Assembly: GCF_011751885.2 (NCBI RefSeq)
Contig: NZ_CP061771.1
Location: forward strand, 2,914,001 to 2,978,000
DNA from: Salinibacterium sp. ZJ450
GTDB lineage: Bacteria; Actinomycetota; Actinomycetes; Actinomycetales; Microbacteriaceae
Direction of reading: 5' to 3'
Length of the DNA stretch: 64,000 bases
The translations under genes and the position numbers were made by a program. Below, piece after piece: positions 13,357-54,930 of the stretch. How positions within the stretch are numbered: the stretch's first letter is position 1; the number at the start of each line of letters is the position of its first letter. Under the pieces are notes generated by a model, which saw only the letters and a list, made by a program, of their open reading frames with translations, searched no databases and was not told the DNA's origin.

Positions 13357-15414
13357 TCAGCCCTGCCAGACCTGCACGACCGACGGACGCGGGGCGGCCA
13401 CCAGGCCGTTGCCGTTCACCGCGGTGTAGTCGGGGAAGTAGGAGTGCTGGTTGGCGAAGCTGCCGTCCTCGCCCGGGTGCTGCACGGCCACGTAGACCAT
13501 GTTCTCGTCGTCGCGGATGATCGGGCCGCAGGTCTCCGCCTCACGCGGCACGGCGAGGAACTGGTCGACCCGGCCGCGGTTGGCGCCCTCGAGGCCGACC
13601 CGGAACAGGCCGTCGTTGTAGCCGATCGTGCCGGGCTGGCCGTCGGTGGAGATCCACAGGTTGCCGGCCTTGTCGAAGGCGACGTTGTCCGGGCAGGAGA
13701 TCGGCGACACCTGGTCGACCGGGAAGCCGGCGAAGTATGCCGAGCTGGAGACGGCGGGGTCGCCGCAGACCAGCAGGATGCTCCAACCGAAGCTCGTCGC
13801 GGTGGCGTCGTTCCGGGCCTCGGTGATCTCGATCACGTGGCCGTCGCGGTTGACCGTCTTCGGGTTGACCTCGTCGACGCCGGCCTTGCCGAGGGTGCCG
13901 CGCTGCGTGTTGTTGGTGCAGGCGACGTACACCTTGCCGCTGGTGGGGTGCGGCTCGACGTCTTCCGGGCGGTCCATCTTGGTGGCGCCGACGGCGTCGG
14001 CGGCGAGGCGGGTGTGCACGAGCACTTCCTCGACGGTGAAGCCGGGGACAGCGCTGGCCCCGTTGAGCGTGAGCGGGATCCACTGGCCGCCGCCGTCGAA
14101 GGCACCGTCGGTGGGCAGTGCGCCGTTGCCGGTGATCTCCGCGGCGGGCGAGTTGCCGCTGAATCGGGCAACGAACAGGTCACCGGTTTCGAGGATCGTC
14201 TTGTTGTGCGCGCGGGCCTTCTCGCTGTTGCCCTTGCGGAAGCTCTTGTGCGAGACGAACTTGTACAGGTAGTCGAAGCGTTCGTCGTCGCCCATGTACG
14301 CCACGACGCGGCCGTCGGGGGCGACGGTGACGTTGGCGCCCTCGTGCTTCATCCGACCCATGGCGGTGTGCTTGACCGGGGTCGAGGTGGGGTCGAGCGG
14401 GTCGATCTCCACGATGTAGCCGAACCGGTTCGGCTCGTTGACGTAGCCGGGGTTGGCCACCGCGTCAAAGCGCGGCTCGAGGGCCTCCCAGCCGTAGGTG
14501 GATGCCGAGGTCGACAGGCCGTAGCGCTTCTGGCCCGCCGTGGTGCCGGGCGAGCGGAAGTAGTTGTTGAAGTTCTCCTCGCCGGAGAGCACGGTGCCCC
14601 ACGGGGTGGTGCCGCCGGCGCAGTTGCCGAAGGTGCCGAGCGCGGTCAGACCGGTGGGGTCATCCTGCGTCTTCATCAGGTCGTGGCCCGCGGCCGGTCC
14701 GGTGAGACGGAACGGAGTGGACGCCGTGACGCGACGGTTGTAGTCGGAGGAACGCAGGTAAGTCCACGGCCGCCCCTTCTTCTCACGCTCCAGCTCGACG
14801 ATGGCCATGCCGTGCGCGGCCATCGTGATGCGCAGCTGCTGCAGCCGCTCGGCCTCGTTCGCGGCCGGCGGGAACATGATGCCGGGGTTGGTGTACTCGT
14901 GGTTGGTGATCAGCAGACCGTGGCGTCCGCCGCGGCCCTGCAGCTCGATGATGTCGAGGTAGTCGTTGTTGTAGCCGTACTGCAGCGCCTGCGCCTCAGG
15001 CGTCTGGTTGTTGATGTCGAACTCGGGGGCGCCGGGCAGGATCGGGTCGCCCCAGCGGATGATCGCACCCCACTGGTAGCCGGCGGGCACCACGAAGTCG
15101 TCGACGGAGGCGTCGATCGGCGGGATCGGAGCGAACTGCAGACCGCGCATGGCGGCCTGGGCGGCGGTTGCGCCGCCGAGTGGAGTCGCGGATGTCGCGA
15201 ACGTCAGAGCCAGCGCGCCGGCGCCCGCGCCGAGCAGCACCGACCGGCGGGACAGGGCAGCTCCGACAATGTCCTTGAAGTAGTCGTTATCGCTCTGGTT
15301 GCAGACACCCATCGCACAGGCGTTGCCGCACTTCAGCGCGCACGTCACCGCGCTGCGCTTGCCCTTGGTGTGGCCCGCCATGGGAAGAAGCATTCGAGTT
15401 TCGTGCTGCGGCAT
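13357..15414 (-). CDS. phoX: PhoX-family alkaline phosphatase, Tat-exported
   Basis: The 685-residue protein has a Tat signal (LSRRSVLLGAGAGALALTFA, about residues 54-73). It is preceded by the cysteine-rich cytoplasmic leader CALKCGNACAMGVCNQSDNDYF that is usual in actinobacterial PhoX. Family blocks include LLITNHEYTNPGIMF, GNCAGGTTPWGTVLSGEENF, HTAMGRMKHEGANV, YMGDDERFDYLYKF and DRPEDVEPHPTSGKVYVACTNN. The family releases phosphate from phosphoesters outside the cell using Ca/Fe cofactors. It is the last gene of a leftward group with a RskA-like anti-sigma and SigK-like sigma factor. I saw no clear Pho box. Confidence 0.9.
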   Translation of the reverse strand: MPQHETRMLLPMAGHTKGKRSAVTCALKCGNACAMGVCNQSDNDYFKDIVGAALSRRSVLLGAGAGALALTFATSATPLGGATAAQAAMRGLQFAPIPPIDASVDDFVVPAGYQWGAIIRWGDPILPGAPEFDINNQTPEAQALQYGYNNDYLDIIELQGRGGRHGLLITNHEYTNPGIMFPPAANEAERLQQLRITMAAHGMAIVELEREKKGRPWTYLRSSDYNRRVTASTPFRLTGPAAGHDLMKTQDDPTGLTALGTFGNCAGGTTPWGTVLSGEENFNNYFRSPGTTAGQKRYGLSTSASTYGWEALEPRFDAVANPGYVNEPNRFGYIVEIDPLDPTSTPVKHTAMGRMKHEGANVTVAPDGRVVAYMGDDERFDYLYKFVSHKSFRKGNSEKARAHNKTILETGDLFVARFSGNSPAAEITGNGALPTDGAFDGGGQWIPLTLNGASAVPGFTVEEVLVHTRLAADAVGATKMDRPEDVEPHPTSGKVYVACTNNTQRGTLGKAGVDEVNPKTVNRDGHVIEITEARNDATATSFGWSILLVCGDPAVSSSAYFAGFPVDQVSPISCPDNVAFDKAGNLWISTDGQPGTIGYNDGLFRVGLEGANRGRVDQFLAVPREAETCGPIIRDDENMVYVAVQHPGEDGSFANQHSYFPDYTAVNGNGLVAAPRPSVVQVWQG

Positions 15415-15570
15415 TGTTGTGGTCCCCTCCGACGCCTGATGTAGACAGAGTCAAGGCAACGGGATGCCGGTGGCCATCCGGTGGCGCCCGGGTGAACGCC
15501 CGGGAACCGGGACATGTCCCTCAGACGGGTGCCACCCTCCCGGGGCGCAAGTTCATACCCGGGGCGCAGC

Positions 15571-16323
15571 TCAGCTGGCGCGCAGCTCGCCGCGCACGAT
15601 GGAATCGCCGGAGTGCGCCGGGTCACCGTTGTCGGGTTCGGCGGAGACATCGACCAGCGGGTACTGGGTGAGGTCGATACCGGCGGGGATCACGAAACTG
15701 CCGGATGCGCCGTCGAGGAATCCGATGCTCACCAGCCCCGAGGCATCCGGTTTGATCAGCCATACCTCACGCAGCCCGGTCGTATCGGTGGGGGTCTCCA
15801 GATCGACAACGACGACGCGGCTGCCGTCGGGCCGTTCCTCCACCCGGGCGATGCCGGAGGCGTCCCAGCCGGGGAACGGGTCGAGTTGCGCCTCCGCCAC
15901 CACGGCCGCGGTGTCCTGCTGCCCGGACTGCCACCAGATTCCGACGCCCACTCCCCCGATCAGTCCGACGACGGCGGCCGCGGCGGCGATCGGCCACCAG
16001 GCGAACGCTCGGCGACCGGGGCGATCCGTGATCGGGGTGACCGGCGCGAGAGTGGAGGTTTTCGAAGCGAAGTCAGCCGCCCGCGGCACCGCGGCCACCT
16101 GCGGCGACAGGCCGAGGTCGGCGTGAATATTCGCCCAGACCGCGTCGGCCGGTTCGATCAGCTCAACGGTTCGTGCGGCGCGTCCGAGCACGGCGGTCTG
16201 CCGAAGTTCGGCGAGCGTCTCGGAGCAGGTCGGACACGCGGCCAGGTGCTCCCGCTCGTGGTCGGCGGGTTCGAGTTCTGCCATGGCGATCAGCGCAAGC
16301 GTGTCGTCGTCAAGATGCTCCAT
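15571..16323 (-). CDS. anti-sigma factor, RskA-like, zinc-finger type
   Basis: The 250-residue protein has an N-terminal anti-sigma domain with a zinc-binding motif ([16 protein letters not shown], residues about 22-37), one membrane helix (about residues 108-131, ending GVGVGIWW) and an extracellular RskA-like domain ([12 protein letters not shown].. [10 protein letters not shown].. [20 protein letters not shown]). It should hold the adjacent sigma factor at the membrane until regulated proteolysis. It overlaps the 3' end of the sigma gene by 14 bases, the usual arrangement for a cognate pair. Confidence 0.92.
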
Positions 16324-16936
16324 CGTTCACCTCCAATCGGCTGCGCAACCGGAACAGGCTCCGGCGGATGTGGCTCTTCACGGTGCCGAGCGGCAGTCCG
16401 AGGGTATCGGCGATCTGAGCGTGGGTGAGGTCGTCGAAGAACGCCAGCTGCATCACTCGCTGGGGCACCGGCTCCAGCTGTTCCAGCTCGGCCGCGATCA
16501 TCACCCGGTCGGCGATCTGCACGGTGTCATCGTCCTGGGCGCTGGGCACCTCGACGGCGTACGCCTCGTCCAGCCGGCGCTGCCTGCTGCGGGCCTCATG
16601 CGTGTCGGCCACCGTGTGTCGGGTGATGCCGACGAGCCAGCCGGGCAGCCTGGACCGGGACGGGTCGAAGCCAGACCGGCCACGCCAGGCGGCGATGAAC
16701 ACCTTCTGGGTGACGTCCTCGGCGTCGGTCGCGTCGCCAAGCGAGCGCAGTGCCAGCGTATAGACGAGGGCCGACCACCGGGCGTAGGCCTCGGCGAGCG
16801 CGCGTTCATCCCCCGCGCGGAACGCCGCAACGAGACGGGCGTCGTCATCGTCGTCCGTGGGTCCGCTCGCGTCGCCGGATCGGGTCACGTCGCTGTGGTG
16901 CCTTTCGGCCTCGGCCATCACCGCTGTCGTTTCCAT
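16310..16936 (-). CDS. ECF sigma factor, SigK-like
   Basis: The 208-residue factor has region 2 at about residues 33-100 ([34 protein letters not shown].. [16 protein letters not shown]) and region 4 at about 145-200 ([41 protein letters not shown]). The first 30 residues are acidic ([10 protein letters not shown]). Coupling to a RskA-like anti-sigma points to the SigK group. In Mycobacterium SigK controls secreted antigens; here the neighbours are a secreted DUF4397 protein and PhoX, so a cell-envelope regulon is inferred. Confidence 0.93.
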
Positions 16937-16988
16937 CAGACTACTGATTTCTTCCGTTTTCCGAACCGGGGTCGAGGCACGGCCAGGA

Positions 16989-17020
16989 CCGCAGCGGGGC
17001 GACGGTCCACCCCGCTGCGG
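16989..17020 (-). terminator. hairpin after the DUF4397 gene
   Basis: CCGCAGCGGGG (16989-16999) pairs with CCCCGCTGCGG (17010-17020), an 11-bp perfect stem with a ten-base loop, 31 bases beyond the DUF4397 stop. No T-run follows on the minus strand. It probably limits read-through into the sigma gene. Confidence 0.5.
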
Positions 17021-17050
17021 CCGGCCGAGGCATCGGCTGGTAACCGATGG

Positions 17051-17740
17051 CTATCCCTTGTCTCCCTTGATTCCCACGTCGATGGTCTGCACCGCGAGCG
17101 CGAGCGTGCCGTCGTCGAGGCTGCCCCAGGCGTACACGATGCTGTTCACGCCCTCGGAAACCGTGACGTCGGCCGGTCCGATCACCGGCTGGGTGGTGCC
17201 GGCTGCCGCGACGGCCGCCGAGATGGTGCCGGCGGGCACGGTCAGTTTCGCCTGGTCGGGGTTGGCCAGGTCACTGATGACGGCGTCCCCTCCGGCCAGC
17301 ACGTCAACGGCGGGGGCGGCCGCCACATGACGGACCGTGAGCCGGCCATTGTCGGCCTTGACCGGGTTGGTGTTGTTCCGGAACAGGGTCGCGGTCGGGT
17401 CACCGGATTCCGTGAGGTGGGCGACCGCCGTGTAGTTCTTGCCTCCCTTCAGCTTCAGGTCGAAGGCGGGGATGATCGGGGAGCTGTCGTCCGCGGCATC
17501 CGCAGCGGTAATGGCGACGGTGTAGCTGCCGCGCTCCAGGTCGAGGGGTCCGGCGAGGGTGCCGGGCTCGAAGTTGTCGAGCGTGAGCGCACCGTCGACG
17601 TAGACGTCGACGGTGACGCCGGGGATTCCGTGCAGCACGGACAGCTGCGCGTCATCCTTGTGGGACGCGAATGCGGGCGACGTGCCTGCGAGTGCTACCA
17701 GTGCGCCGGCTGCGATGCCGAACGCGAGGGTCTTGCGCAT
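17051..17740 (-). CDS. secreted DUF4397-domain protein
   Basis: The 229-residue protein starts at the ATG at 17740 after a GGAGGTAATC ribosome-binding site; the open frame further upstream is antisense and unsupported. Residues 1-26 are a Sec signal peptide (MRKTLAFGIAAGALVALAGT..AFAS). The mature protein begins with the DUF4397 block AQLSVLHGIPGVTVDVYVDG and has a second related segment (GRLTVRHVAAAPAVDVLAGGD), so it has two beta-rich repeats. The function is unknown; it is extracellular. It lies directly upstream of the SigK/RskA pair on the same strand, like known SigK-target secreted proteins. Confidence 0.9.
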   Translation of the reverse strand: MRKTLAFGIAAGALVALAGTSPAFASHKDDAQLSVLHGIPGVTVDVYVDGALTLDNFEPGTLAGPLDLERGSYTVAITAADAADDSSPIIPAFDLKLKGGKNYTAVAHLTESGDPTATLFRNNTNPVKADNGRLTVRHVAAAPAVDVLAGGDAVISDLANPDQAKLTVPAGTISAAVAAAGTTQPVIGPADVTVSEGVNSIVYAWGSLDDGTLALAVQTIDVGIKGDKG

Positions 17741-21314: not shown

Positions 21315-21725
21315 ATGCGACCCTCGCGTACCCTGATCACCGCTCTCGCCGGAGTCGGCCTCGTCGGCGCCCTCACGGGATGCGCAGCAGACGGCAGCGC
21401 GATGGCCGAAGATCCGGCCCCCCAGAACGACTACGCCGACGGCGAGTATTCGGCCACCGGCTCGTACGTGTCACCGAACGGCACCGAGACGATCGATGTG
21501 TCGGTGACCCTCGAGGGCGGCGTCGTTGCCGACGTGGCGGTGACCTCGCACCCGACGAACCCGAACACCGAGCAGTTCCAGGGCCGGTTCGTGCAGGGCA
21601 TCGCCGATCACGTGGTCGGCAAGAACCTCGATGAGCTGTCGGTGACCAAGGTGTCCGGTTCGAGCCTCACCAGTGGCGGCTTCAACGACGCCATCGAGCA
21701 GATCAAGGCCGATGCCCGCGGGTAG
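21315..21725 (+). CDS. FMN-binding domain lipoprotein
   Basis: The 136-residue protein has a lipoprotein signal (VGALTGC|A, Cys at about residue 23) and then one FMN-binding domain (YADGEYSATGSYVSPNG.. ETIDVSVTLEGGVVADVAVTSH.. NPNTEQFQGRF). The flavinylation site expected by ApbE appears as VSGSSLTSGG near the C-terminus, with Ser in the position of the usual Thr of SGAT. It would carry covalent FMN on the outer membrane face. Its 3' end overlaps apbE by 14 bases, and the membrane reductase follows, so the three make one electron-transfer unit. Confidence 0.9.
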   Translation: MRPSRTLITALAGVGLVGALTGCAADGSAMAEDPAPQNDYADGEYSATGSYVSPNGTETIDVSVTLEGGVVADVAVTSHPTNPNTEQFQGRFVQGIADHVVGKNLDELSVTKVSGSSLTSGGFNDAIEQIKADARG

Positions 21726-22572
21726 CCTCAGCTTCGAGGCCATCGGCACCCGGTGGCAGATCGACACCCCCGATCCGCTGCCGCCGGCCGTCATCACCGC
21801 GCTGCACGATCGCATCGACCGCTTCGACCGCGACTGGTCCCGGTTCCGCACCGACTCCCTGGTGGCCCGGATGGCCCAGACGCCCGGGCGCTGGCAGTTG
21901 CCGGATGACGCCACGCCGCTGCTCGAGCTCTACCGCGATCTGTACGAGGCGACGGATGGCGCGGTGTCGCCGCTGATCGGTCGTTCCCTGGAGACCCTCG
22001 GCTACGACCGCGACTACAGCCTCCGCCCGTCGGGGCCGCCGGTGCCCGCCCCGCGCTGGGAAGACGCCATCGCCTGGGACGGCACGCACCTCACTACGGT
22101 GCGCCCGGTCAGCGTGGACATCGGCGCCGCCGGGAAGGGCTACCTGGTCGACATCGTCGGGCGGCTGCTCACGGCGGCCGGGATACCCGAACATCTGGTC
22201 GACGCGGGCGGCGACATCCGGCACACCGGTTCAGACTCGATTCGCGTCGCGCTCGAGCATCCGCTGGATCCGAGCAAGGCGATCGGCGTGGTGACGCTCA
22301 GCGGCCGGGCGATCTGCGCGTCGGCCAGCAACCGGCGTGCCTGGGGCGATGGGCTGCACCACGTGCTGGATGCCACCACCGGGTTGCCGACCCGGCGGGT
22401 GATCGCCACCTGGGCCATTGCCGACAGCGCGTTGGTCGCCGACGGCGTGGCCACGGCGTTATTCTTCCGAGACGCCGACCGGTTGCGCTCGTTCGAGTTC
22501 GAGCACGTTCGGATGTTCTCTGACGGGCATGTGGAGTGGTCGCAGAACCTGACAGGAGAGGTGTTCGCGTGA
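21712..22572 (+). CDS. apbE: FAD:protein FMN transferase
   Basis: The 286-residue enzyme transfers FMN from FAD to Ser/Thr of target proteins. Family marks are FEAIGTRWQIDTP at the start, the VSVDIGAAGKGYLVDIVG block, HLVDAGGDIRHTGSDS and the metal/FAD loop DATTGLPTRRVIATWAI. No signal peptide is evident, so it may act in the cytoplasm or be exported by another route; many homologues are exported. The ATG at 21712 lies inside the FMN-lipoprotein gene, and the stop overlaps the GTG of the next gene. The neighbouring lipoprotein is the obvious substrate. Confidence 0.93.
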   Translation: MPAGSLSFEAIGTRWQIDTPDPLPPAVITALHDRIDRFDRDWSRFRTDSLVARMAQTPGRWQLPDDATPLLELYRDLYEATDGAVSPLIGRSLETLGYDRDYSLRPSGPPVPAPRWEDAIAWDGTHLTTVRPVSVDIGAAGKGYLVDIVGRLLTAAGIPEHLVDAGGDIRHTGSDSIRVALEHPLDPSKAIGVVTLSGRAICASASNRRAWGDGLHHVLDATTGLPTRRVIATWAIADSALVADGVATALFFRDADRLRSFEFEHVRMFSDGHVEWSQNLTGEVFA

Positions 22573-24071
22573 ACGGTACCGGGCTGGTGGCGTGGCTTGA
22601 CCGGCAGCTGGGCCGGGTGAGCATGTACGTGCTGATTACCGCGGCGCTCACGGTGCTGGTGCTCGCGGCGATGCTGCTGGCGCTGACCGGCCAGCTCGGC
22701 TTCGAGCCCGTCTCGCTGCTCACCAGTGTCGTCGTGTCGCTCGCCGCGACGGTGGCATCCGGCTGGCTGTTCGCCCGGCTGTTCCGCGCCCGCGCGCACC
22801 TGCTGTCCTCGGCGATCACCGCCCTGCTGTTGTTCTTCCTGTTCTTCCCGTCCACCTCGCCCGACCAGCTGGGCTCCCTCGCCCTCGCCGGCGTGATCGC
22901 CAGCGCCTCGAAGTTCGTGCTGGCCTGGCGTGGACGGCACATCGTGAATCCGGCTGCGATCGGCGCCCTGGTGGTAACGCTGACCGAGCTGAACGCGAGC
23001 GTCTGGTGGGTGGCGACGCCGTGGCTGCTGCCGGTGACGGCGATCGGCGCGTTCCTCATTCTGTGGCGTACTCGCAAGGTCACGGTCGGCGTCGTCTTCG
23101 TGGTGGTGGCCGTGGCGGTCATCGTCATCCGGTTGGTGGCCTTCGGTCTCGACCCTGTCAGCGCGATCGGCAGCGCGTTCACCTCGTTCCCGGTGGTGTT
23201 CCTCGCCGGGTTCATGCTGAGCGAGCCGCTCACCCTGCCGCCGCGCCGCTGGCAGCAACTGCTGGTGGCGGTGGTCACCGCCCTGCTGTTCAGCATTCCG
23301 TTCCAGATCGGGTCGATGTATTCCACCCCGGAGCTCGCCCTCGTGATCGGCAACCTGATCGCCTTCGGGTTCGGGCAGCGCCGCGGGCTGCCGCTGGAAT
23401 ACCTCGGCCGCCAGCAGCTCACCCCCACCGCGTGGGAGTTCTCGTTCGCACCCGGTCGGCCCGCGCGGTTCCTGCCCGGGCAGTACGTCGAGCTCACCCT
23501 GCCGCACCGTGCCGATCTGCGCGGCTCCCGGCGCCCGTTCAGCATCACCTCGGCGACGCCGGATCGGCTGACCATTGGGGTTCGCTTCTCGCAGCCGTCG
23601 AGCAGCTTCAAGCTGGCGCTGCTCGATCTGGTGCCGGGCCAGACGGTGCGGGCCACCTCGATCGGCGGCGACTTCGTACTGCCGCACGACCCGTCGACGA
23701 AGCTGCTGCTACTGGCCGGCGGCATCGGCATCACCCCGTTCGTCGGCCAGCTGGCCGGCAGCAGCGGGCGCGACGCGGTGCTGGTCTACTCGGTGTCCTC
23801 GCCCGATGAGTTGGCTTTCGCGCCAAGGCTGGCGGCATCCGGTGCCCGCGTGCTGGTGGTCGCGCCCGAGACGTTCCCGGCGCTGCCGGACGGCTGGGAA
23901 TACCTCGATTCCGGTCATCTCACCGCCGAGCGCTTGCTGGCGGCGGTTCCGGATGCCGCGGAGCGGACCGCCTACGTCTCCGGGTCTCCGAACTTCGTCA
24001 ACGGCGTGCGTGCCACACTCCGGGCGGCCCGGGTGCAGCGCATCCGCACCGACCTGTTTTCCGGGTACTGA
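22569..24071 (+). CDS. membrane oxidoreductase: NqrB/RnfD-like membrane domain fused to FNR-type FAD/NAD domain
   Basis: The 500-residue protein begins with about 270 residues of membrane helices (around nine to ten) that resemble NqrB/RnfD (GRHIVNPAAIGALVVTL, FMLSEPLTLPPRRW). It continues into a soluble ferredoxin-reductase module: FAD-binding RRPFSITSATPDR, the pyridine-nucleotide site LLLLAGGIGITPFVGQLA and a C-terminal YVSGSPNFVNGV. It would take electrons from NAD(P)H in the cytoplasm and pass them across the membrane to the FMN lipoprotein encoded two genes upstream. The GTG at 22569 overlaps the apbE stop. Iron-sulfur cysteines are not seen. Confidence 0.88.
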   Translation: MNGTGLVAWLDRQLGRVSMYVLITAALTVLVLAAMLLALTGQLGFEPVSLLTSVVVSLAATVASGWLFARLFRARAHLLSSAITALLLFFLFFPSTSPDQLGSLALAGVIASASKFVLAWRGRHIVNPAAIGALVVTLTELNASVWWVATPWLLPVTAIGAFLILWRTRKVTVGVVFVVVAVAVIVIRLVAFGLDPVSAIGSAFTSFPVVFLAGFMLSEPLTLPPRRWQQLLVAVVTALLFSIPFQIGSMYSTPELALVIGNLIAFGFGQRRGLPLEYLGRQQLTPTAWEFSFAPGRPARFLPGQYVELTLPHRADLRGSRRPFSITSATPDRLTIGVRFSQPSSSFKLALLDLVPGQTVRATSIGGDFVLPHDPSTKLLLLAGGIGITPFVGQLAGSSGRDAVLVYSVSSPDELAFAPRLAASGARVLVVAPETFPALPDGWEYLDSGHLTAERLLAAVPDAAERTAYVSGSPNFVNGVRATLRAARVQRIRTDLFSGY

Positions 24072-54213: not shown

Positions 54214-54930
54214 GTGAGTGAGAGCCAGTCGGTCCGTGTCGAACCCCATGCCCCAGGCCTTGCGTCGCGCCTGAACTGGCTGCGCGCCGGTGTTCTCGGC
54301 GCCAACGACGGAATCGTCTCCACTGCCGCGCTGATCGTCGGTGTTGCGGCAGCCACGTCGGCGATCGCGCCGATTCTGACCGCGGGCGTCGCCGGCCTGA
54401 TCGCCGGCGCGGTGTCGATGGCGCTCGGTGAGTACGTGTCGGTGAGCGCGCAGCGCGACACCGAACGCGCCGCCATCGCGCTGGAGCGACAAGAGCTCGT
54501 GGATGACCCGGACGGTGAGCTCGACGAGCTCACCGAGATCTACCGGTCCAAGGGCCTCAGCCATGGCACCGCCCGCTCCGTCGCCGAGGAGCTGACCGCG
54601 CACGATGCGCTCGCCGCGCACCTCGAGGCCGAGCTACACATCAGCGAGCACGAGGTGTCCAGCCCCTGGCATGCCGCGCTCGCCTCCGCGGTGTCGTTCA
54701 CGATCGGATCGGTGCTGCCGTTGCTCGCGGTGCTGCTGGCCCCGCTCGAGTGGCGGATCCCGGCGATCGCCGTATCCACTCTGCTGGCATTGGCAATTAC
54801 CGGCGCGCTCGGCGCATACCTCGGCAACAGCCCGATGGCGCGGCCCACCATCCGGGTCATCATCGGCGGGGTGCTGGCGCTGGCGCTCACCTACGGCATC
54901 GGCTCGCTGCTCGGCACCACCGTCGGCTGA
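54214..54930 (+). CDS. VIT1/CCC1 family (DUF125) transporter
   Basis: The 238-residue protein belongs to the vacuolar iron/manganese transporter family. It has [28 protein letters not shown] in helix 1, [23 protein letters not shown] after helix 2, a long cytoplasmic helical loop ([26 protein letters not shown]) and three C-terminal helices. It should export Fe2+ or Mn2+ from the cytoplasm. The GTG at 54214 is chosen because GACAAT lies exactly six bases before it; the frame is open from 54175. Confidence 0.9.

Follow-up and report, generated by a model that had tools for sequence, protein, structure and literature searches.

How could a lipoprotein with an export signal come to carry a covalently bound flavin if the enzyme that should attach it has no export signal of its own? 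This question is raised by three overlapping genes in a stretch of 64,000 nucleotides from Salinibacterium sp. ZJ450, which was analysed as a whole and is referred to here as the window. The genes encode a lipoprotein with a predicted domain for binding flavin mononucleotide (FMN), an ApbE and a protein in which a membrane domain is fused to a module for flavin adenine dinucleotide (FAD) and NAD(P). From their content the trio is, in our judgement, likely to form an NQR/RNF-like transmembrane flavin conduit, in which flavin occupancy and the direction of electron flow are deduced. More tentatively, and at somewhat short of even chances, we propose that the lipoprotein receives its FMN in the cytosol and is exported afterwards, and that this would hold for an entire class of bacterial systems for electron export. 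The conduit class itself has already been published; the part of the locus worth following is the leaderless ApbE, which a preliminary description of this DNA missed although the substrate has a signal peptide.

The contrast between enzyme and substrate was followed in 81 loci, i.e., the window and 80 named contigs, using our own gene calls for the neighbouring genes. Leaders were scored by hydrophobicity with a mark of 1.8, every upstream start being allowed. A lipobox signal peptide is present in 77 of 78 lipoproteins, that of the window included, and 74 of the 78 reach the mark. The ApbE of the window has no hydrophobic leader and no signal peptide, and a single ApbE out of 80 reaches the mark (L107), owing to an extension of 147 residues that runs across the adjacent gene and looks like an artefact. 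The N-terminal extension of these 80 proteins has a median length of 10 residues; six of them have no ATG, GTG or TTG before the domain, two of the six being cut by the end of a contig. A count that does not depend on the choice of start, made over 78 loci with two truncated ones left out, found an in-frame stop at most 15 codons before the conserved ApbE domain in 24 loci and at most 25 codons before it in 34. The scan is able to see leaders, since it marked 21 of 27 control ApbEs of the wider phylum as leader-bearing; the controls were the best-scoring ApbEs of the phylum and not a random draw, and 3 of the 30 loci taken (L142, L156 and L170) were dropped for broken frames. The leaderless pattern also occurs in the distant trios described below, i.e., L185, L240 and a Mesorhizobium plasmid, where the ApbE has an in-frame stop 14 codons before its domain.

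The trait may extend beyond this trio. Among 20 other ApbEs sampled from the family, one lies above the leader mark (L215, 2.07) and 19 score as leaderless, one of which (L213) is masked with N and unreadable. These further ApbEs (L213-L232), mostly leaderless-looking, show no SGAT-type motif in the 2.3-2.6 kb of sequence taken with them. Likewise, in MsrQ-like sets, where PF01794 was found in all three that were scanned (L172, L173 and L211), the ApbE appears by eye to lack a leader and the FMN_bind partners are anchored. Since leaderless ApbEs are also seen in these sets and among the other family ApbEs, absence of a leader may be a general trait of flavinylation in these bacteria.

Does the trio behave as a unit? 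The nearest named relatives of the window genome belong to Microbacteriaceae such as Herbiconiux, and in a sample of 299 genomes of this family a fusion homologue (E 3.4e-73 or better) was found in 118 by hand count; ApbE was found in 206, and all 118 fusion-bearing genomes are among them. The genome of the window (3.83 Mb, a single contig) yields one match each for the fusion, ApbE and FMN_bind at the thresholds used. ApbE adjoins the fusion in 80 of the 81 loci and the FMN_bind lipoprotein adjoins in 78, the misses being L098, L104 and L129; in L098 and L104 the frame of ApbE is truncated. A 4-nucleotide overlap between ApbE and the fusion is found at 68 of 80 junctions, and in 73 of 78 FMN/ApbE pairs a candidate start codon for ApbE lies between -20 and +50 nucleotides from the FMN stop. 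Chance is excluded for the trio because its gene order recurs in 78-80 of the 81 loci, which is also the outcome of the search in relatives that the preliminary description had proposed. ApbE residues His217, Asp220, Asp244 and Thr248, which we take to lie in the active site, are invariant in 27 aligned sequences. The predicted flavin acceptor position, in a C-terminal motif, is Ser in 78 of 78 lipoproteins; the published flavinylation motif has Ser or Thr as acceptor (Meheust 2021, PMC8238504).

More distant trios are found in an actinobacterial cluster that shares about 33% identity (L185) and in L240 (G593:C16), where an in-frame stop breaks the fusion gene, which is either decaying or affected by a sequencing error. 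Plasmid pB2-1-1 of Mesorhizobium sp. B2-1-1 (L233, NZ_CP083955.1, 183564-194778) has an alphaproteobacterial trio of the same class. In five distant PF03116 loci (L235-L239) the match to the family profile is confined to the membrane domain, and no ApbE match was obtained. Actinobacterial-looking trios also occur in a sequence titled Vibrio cholerae (L075, WNZI01000018.1), with an Arthrobacter-like gene order, and on a plasmid titled Pseudomonas sp. DR48 (L234, NZ_CP081947.1); both are probably mislabelled or contaminating DNA.

The nature of the three proteins was approached through profiles and predicted structures. ApbE matches its Pfam family at E=4.2e-38 and PDB entry 1vrm at 7.1e-16, and the lipoprotein matches FMN_bind at 22.1 bits, barely above the cut-off of 22. 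The lipoprotein model (pLDDT, the predicted local confidence, 80.4) fits best domain 2 of the flavinylated protein SaFMN3 (8p2a; Z 11.2, root mean square deviation (rmsd) 1.9, 87 residues) and next NqrC and RnfG at Z 8-9, a range in which unrelated folds reach 9.2 and 9.0; Foldseek with this model returned no match at E 0.001 or better, and phmmer with the lipoprotein returned no FMN protein of known structure. For the fusion, modelled at a mean pLDDT of 87.6, residues 18-273 align with RnfD (8ahx_D; Z 22.9, rmsd 3.1, 238 residues) and residues 268-499 with the FAD domain of NqrF (7qu5; Z 22.4, rmsd 2.7, 225 residues), and the FNR module aligns structurally with 4eh1_A at Z 25.3. A profile search with the fusion matched NqrF 7qty at E 1.6e-10, the NCBIfam flavohemoprotein model matched the FNR module at 6.3e-12, under its curated cut-off, and comparison of hidden Markov models between the membrane part and 17 RnfD-family sequences gave a probability of 87% (E 3.7e-6). 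Foldseek with the fusion model had no RnfD among the matches listed, and the RnfD match comes from a separate structural alignment. Judged by its predicted structure, the fusion is homologous to RnfD in its membrane part and to the FAD domain of NqrF in the remainder. The preliminary description had named an FMN-binding lipoprotein, ApbE and an NqrB/RnfD-like domain fused to a FAD/NAD module, and all three were found in that order.

From these parts the following route can be proposed. The FNR module of the fusion would take hydride from NAD(P)H onto FAD at the cytosolic side; the electrons would cross the membrane by a non-covalently bound flavin of the RnfD-like domain and would then reach the FMN covalently bound to Ser117 of the surface lipoprotein, which would reduce an acceptor outside the cell. 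A route from NAD(P)H to a surface flavin had already been suggested in the preliminary description, and it fits the domain content and order. ApbE, produced from the same coupled operon, would attach FMN to the lipoprotein; its lack of an export signal leads us to place this step in the cytosol, before export, with the full-length precursor as substrate and with cytosolic FAD. The short lipoprotein would be exported with FMN attached, most likely by Sec, which is likelier than the twin-arginine (Tat) pathway given that twin arginines are uncommon in the signal peptides; and a cytosolic ApbE would need no FAD exporter of the EetB type. If this is true, cytosolic flavinylation would remove the need for FAD export, which would explain why the neighbourhoods of these operons show no recurrent FAD transporter; a protein already bearing flavin would go through the Sec channel, in some species through Tat; and, with leaderless ApbE acting inside, the picture in which ApbE and its FAD are extracytosolic would need a second branch.

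Where ApbE acts is the point on which other explanations diverge. It could work outside the membrane without a classical signal peptide, using exported FAD as in Listeria, which we consider rather unlikely. Characterised ApbEs with exported substrates are indeed described as extracytosolic, with an FAD supply outside the membrane too (PMC12052999, PMC9973259), and a leaderless ApbE with an exported substrate was not found in the literature searched, which included few subscription papers and gave only cytosolic ApbEs with cytosolic substrates. Against an extracytosolic site, none of the 80 loci has an ApbE leader, bar the artefact-like case, and EetB (PF07456), the FAD-export subunit of Listeria, is found in 0 of the 299 family genomes and in 2 of 14 controls, a search that did not extend to other FAD exporters. 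If FMN is attached in the cytosol, the folded holo-lipoprotein could also leave by Tat, which carries folded cofactor proteins. Twin arginines were counted in 11 of 76 signal peptides when the nearest start was taken and in 17 of 76 with the farthest, so that at least 59 of the 76, including that of the window, show no twin arginine after a possible start; export of the holo-lipoprotein by Tat is regarded as unlikely.

It could also be supposed that the leaderless ApbE has another, cytosolic target and does not act on the lipoprotein at all. For known cytosolic ApbEs, the proteins modified are cytosolic fumarate reductases (PMC12052999), and the other family ApbEs sampled, with the one unreadable case among the 19, likewise score as leaderless; however, the ApbE and lipoprotein genes adjoin in 78 of 78 assessable pairs, the acceptor motif is conserved in all 78 lipoproteins, and the single ApbE and single FMN_bind protein found in the window genome at the thresholds used leave this explanation quite improbable. 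Least probable by far is that ribosomal frameshifting at the gene overlap, which measures 14 nucleotides in the window, yields lipoprotein and ApbE as one exported protein, given that all three possible frames of ApbE against the lipoprotein gene are represented (31, 25 and 22 of 78); as a family-wide mechanism, such a fusion was rejected on this ground.

Several points also weigh against the proposal of a conduit flavinylated from inside. The leader scan measures hydrophobicity and is not SignalP. According to a review, an ApbE that is normally periplasmic failed to restore growth of its knockout when supplied in a cytosolic form (PMC12052999). No support was found for passage of an FMN-bearing chain through Sec, and modification may require a folded acceptor domain, a matter on which the literature passages searched hold nothing. 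As to the conduit, the window fusion scores 16 bits with Pfam NQR2_RnfD_RnfE (PF03116), for which the cut-off is 27.7, and 12 bits with NAD_binding_1 (PF00175), for which it is 22; these matches below the cut-offs are taken as real homologies because the folds align with RnfD and NqrF.

How electrons would cross the membrane domain is constrained by its residues. The window fusion has zero cysteines, as have 20 of 60 relatives, which excludes a cysteine-ligated iron-sulfur cluster; its membrane domain has one conserved His, and no His pair is conserved. Without cysteines or a conserved His pair there is no obvious metal route in the fusion, and an iron-sulfur or heme route was rejected. This agrees with the claim of the preliminary description that the system lacks iron-sulfur and separate NqrF/RnfC subunits. 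In the fusion, the covalent-flavin loop of RnfD is absent, as seen in the alignment and in the distance from the NPAA to the SEPLT motif, which amounts to 89 residues in 35 of the 60 relatives versus 123-138 in the 15 RnfD sequences, out of 17, that could be measured. The residue aligned with the flavin acceptor of RnfD is Thr in 38 of the 60 relatives, Asn in 12, Ser in 7, Ala in 2 and Asp in 1. With the acceptor position not conserved and the loop missing, a covalent flavin on the membrane domain was rejected as a feature of the class, in agreement with the report that in NQR/RNF-like membrane domains a covalent flavin is not conserved (Huang 2024, PMC10979944). The trio would represent a very compact transmembrane electron route, made of a cysteine-free protein of 500 residues and one flavin lipoprotein.

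The features of the locus are listed in the table. The ATG used for ApbE is the best candidate, with an alternative GTG at 21673, and for the fusion a longer open GTG start exists at 22536. The genes of the lipoprotein and ApbE overlap by 14 nucleotides and those of ApbE and the fusion by 4, GTGA being shared with the ApbE stop; both overlaps had been noticed in the preliminary description.

Table. Features of the flavin-transfer locus, in positions of the window.
Feature	Position	Strand	Basis or remark
FMN_bind lipoprotein, 136 aa (P0001)	21315..21725	+	ATG start; Pfam FMN_bind, fold match, lipobox
Lipobox Cys23 of the lipoprotein	21381-21383	+	
Predicted flavin acceptor Ser117 (SGSSLTS) of the lipoprotein	21663-21665	+	
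ApbE, FAD:protein FMN transferase, 286 aa (P0002), without signal peptide	21712..22572	+	Pfam, PDB 1vrm match
Fusion protein, 500 aa (P0003)	22569..24071	+	GTG start
Membrane domain of the fusion, about residues 1-272, RnfD/NqrB-like, without the RnfD covalent-flavin loop	22569..23384	+	Fold, HMM-HMM comparison
Cytosolic FNR-type FAD/NAD(P) module of the fusion, about residues 273-500	23385..24071	+	Fold matches 4eh1_A and NqrF 7qu5

The final acceptor was sought among the neighbours. When genes within 8 positions of the trio were clustered for the 81 loci, no cluster occurred in more than 26 of them and none names an acceptor or a fourth partner; the preliminary description, which had proposed a look at extra neighbours, had left the identity of the acceptor open. 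By eye, the flanking genes follow lineage, with argS and threonine genes in Arthrobacter and glmU-type genes in Microbacterium, and an amidohydrolase and hsp20 flank the trio in the nearer relatives of the window. Close to the trio of the Mesorhizobium plasmid there are VIT, cytochrome b domain, PepSY and two-component genes, which hints at iron in that lineage. The window itself contains a VIT family protein (54214-54930, + strand; PF01988, 1e-68) about 30 kb from the trio, and a link to iron through this gene was not used on account of that distance. A congener without the fusion (G001) has an MsrQ-like set (L211, 4380-7343, - strand) formed by a Ferric_reduct/FAD/NAD protein, an exported FMN_bind protein and a leaderless ApbE; from this one congener, it is suggested that the trio and the MsrQ-like set share an output. 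Elsewhere in the window (13357-17740, - strand) a PhoX alkaline phosphatase (1.2e-154), an RskA-type anti-sigma factor and a DUF4397 protein are found together.

The place of the trio among known systems is given by a survey that described an NQR/RNF-like class, in which an NqrB/RnfD membrane domain is fused to an NAD module within a flavinylation gene cluster (Meheust 2021, PMC8238504). The class was reported as 127 clusters in 127 genomes, mainly of Actinobacteria and the candidate phyla radiation, with VIT1 present in six clusters (PMC8238504); later, a Ktedonobacter pair of this class was modelled (Huang 2024, PMC10979944), and both papers propose NAD(P)H as the source of the electrons and extracytosolic FMN as their recipient. 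By homology, which we take as the defining feature of the class in place of a Pfam threshold, the trio of the window is a member of it, and its main reading is thus already known. The statement in the preliminary description that ApbE-linked systems are known was correct, but the system was not identified there as this named class. Together with the fusion, the window has the ApbE and the FMN-binding protein with a signal peptide or lipobox that the class shows in one cluster; the fusion itself stays below the Pfam cut-offs for PF03116 and PF00175, for which the score limits of the survey may differ, and the Mesorhizobium fusion passes both (39.1 and 58.5 bits, respectively). At E 2.5e-6, PF03116 matches 7 and PF00175 matches 29 of 60 fusion relatives. 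With many relatives under the cut-offs, the published class size is probably an undercount.

Compared with the published NQR/RNF-like systems, the window trio has the same membrane-NAD fusion, FMN-binding protein and ApbE in one cluster, and the same lack of a conserved covalent flavin on the membrane domain; it differs in the sub-threshold Pfam scores of its fusion and in that its FMN carrier is a lipoprotein with a Ser acceptor, and the available passages of those papers say nothing of a leaderless ApbE. With the RNF and NQR complexes it shares the RnfD/NqrB-type membrane domain, the NqrF-type FAD domain and the RnfG/NqrC-type FMN domain, whereas the window fusion lacks cysteine and the RnfD flavin loop, and no separate NqrB/RnfD subunit is indicated by a PF03116 match at E 0.001 anywhere in its genome. 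The extracellular electron transfer system of Listeria (FmnB, PplA and EetB-FmnA) likewise combines an ApbE-type enzyme with a surface lipoprotein that passes electrons outward through a covalent flavin; however, FmnB works outside the cytosol and needs exported FAD (PMC9973259), in contrast with a leaderless ApbE in a family where EetB was not found. The membrane domain of MsrQ-like systems is Ferric_reduct (PF01794), whereas that of the window is RnfD-like, and fusion P0003 gives no PF01794 match at E up to 1; nevertheless, both kinds of system unite a membrane protein bearing an FNR module, an exported FMN_bind protein and a leaderless ApbE, as seen in the congener G001.

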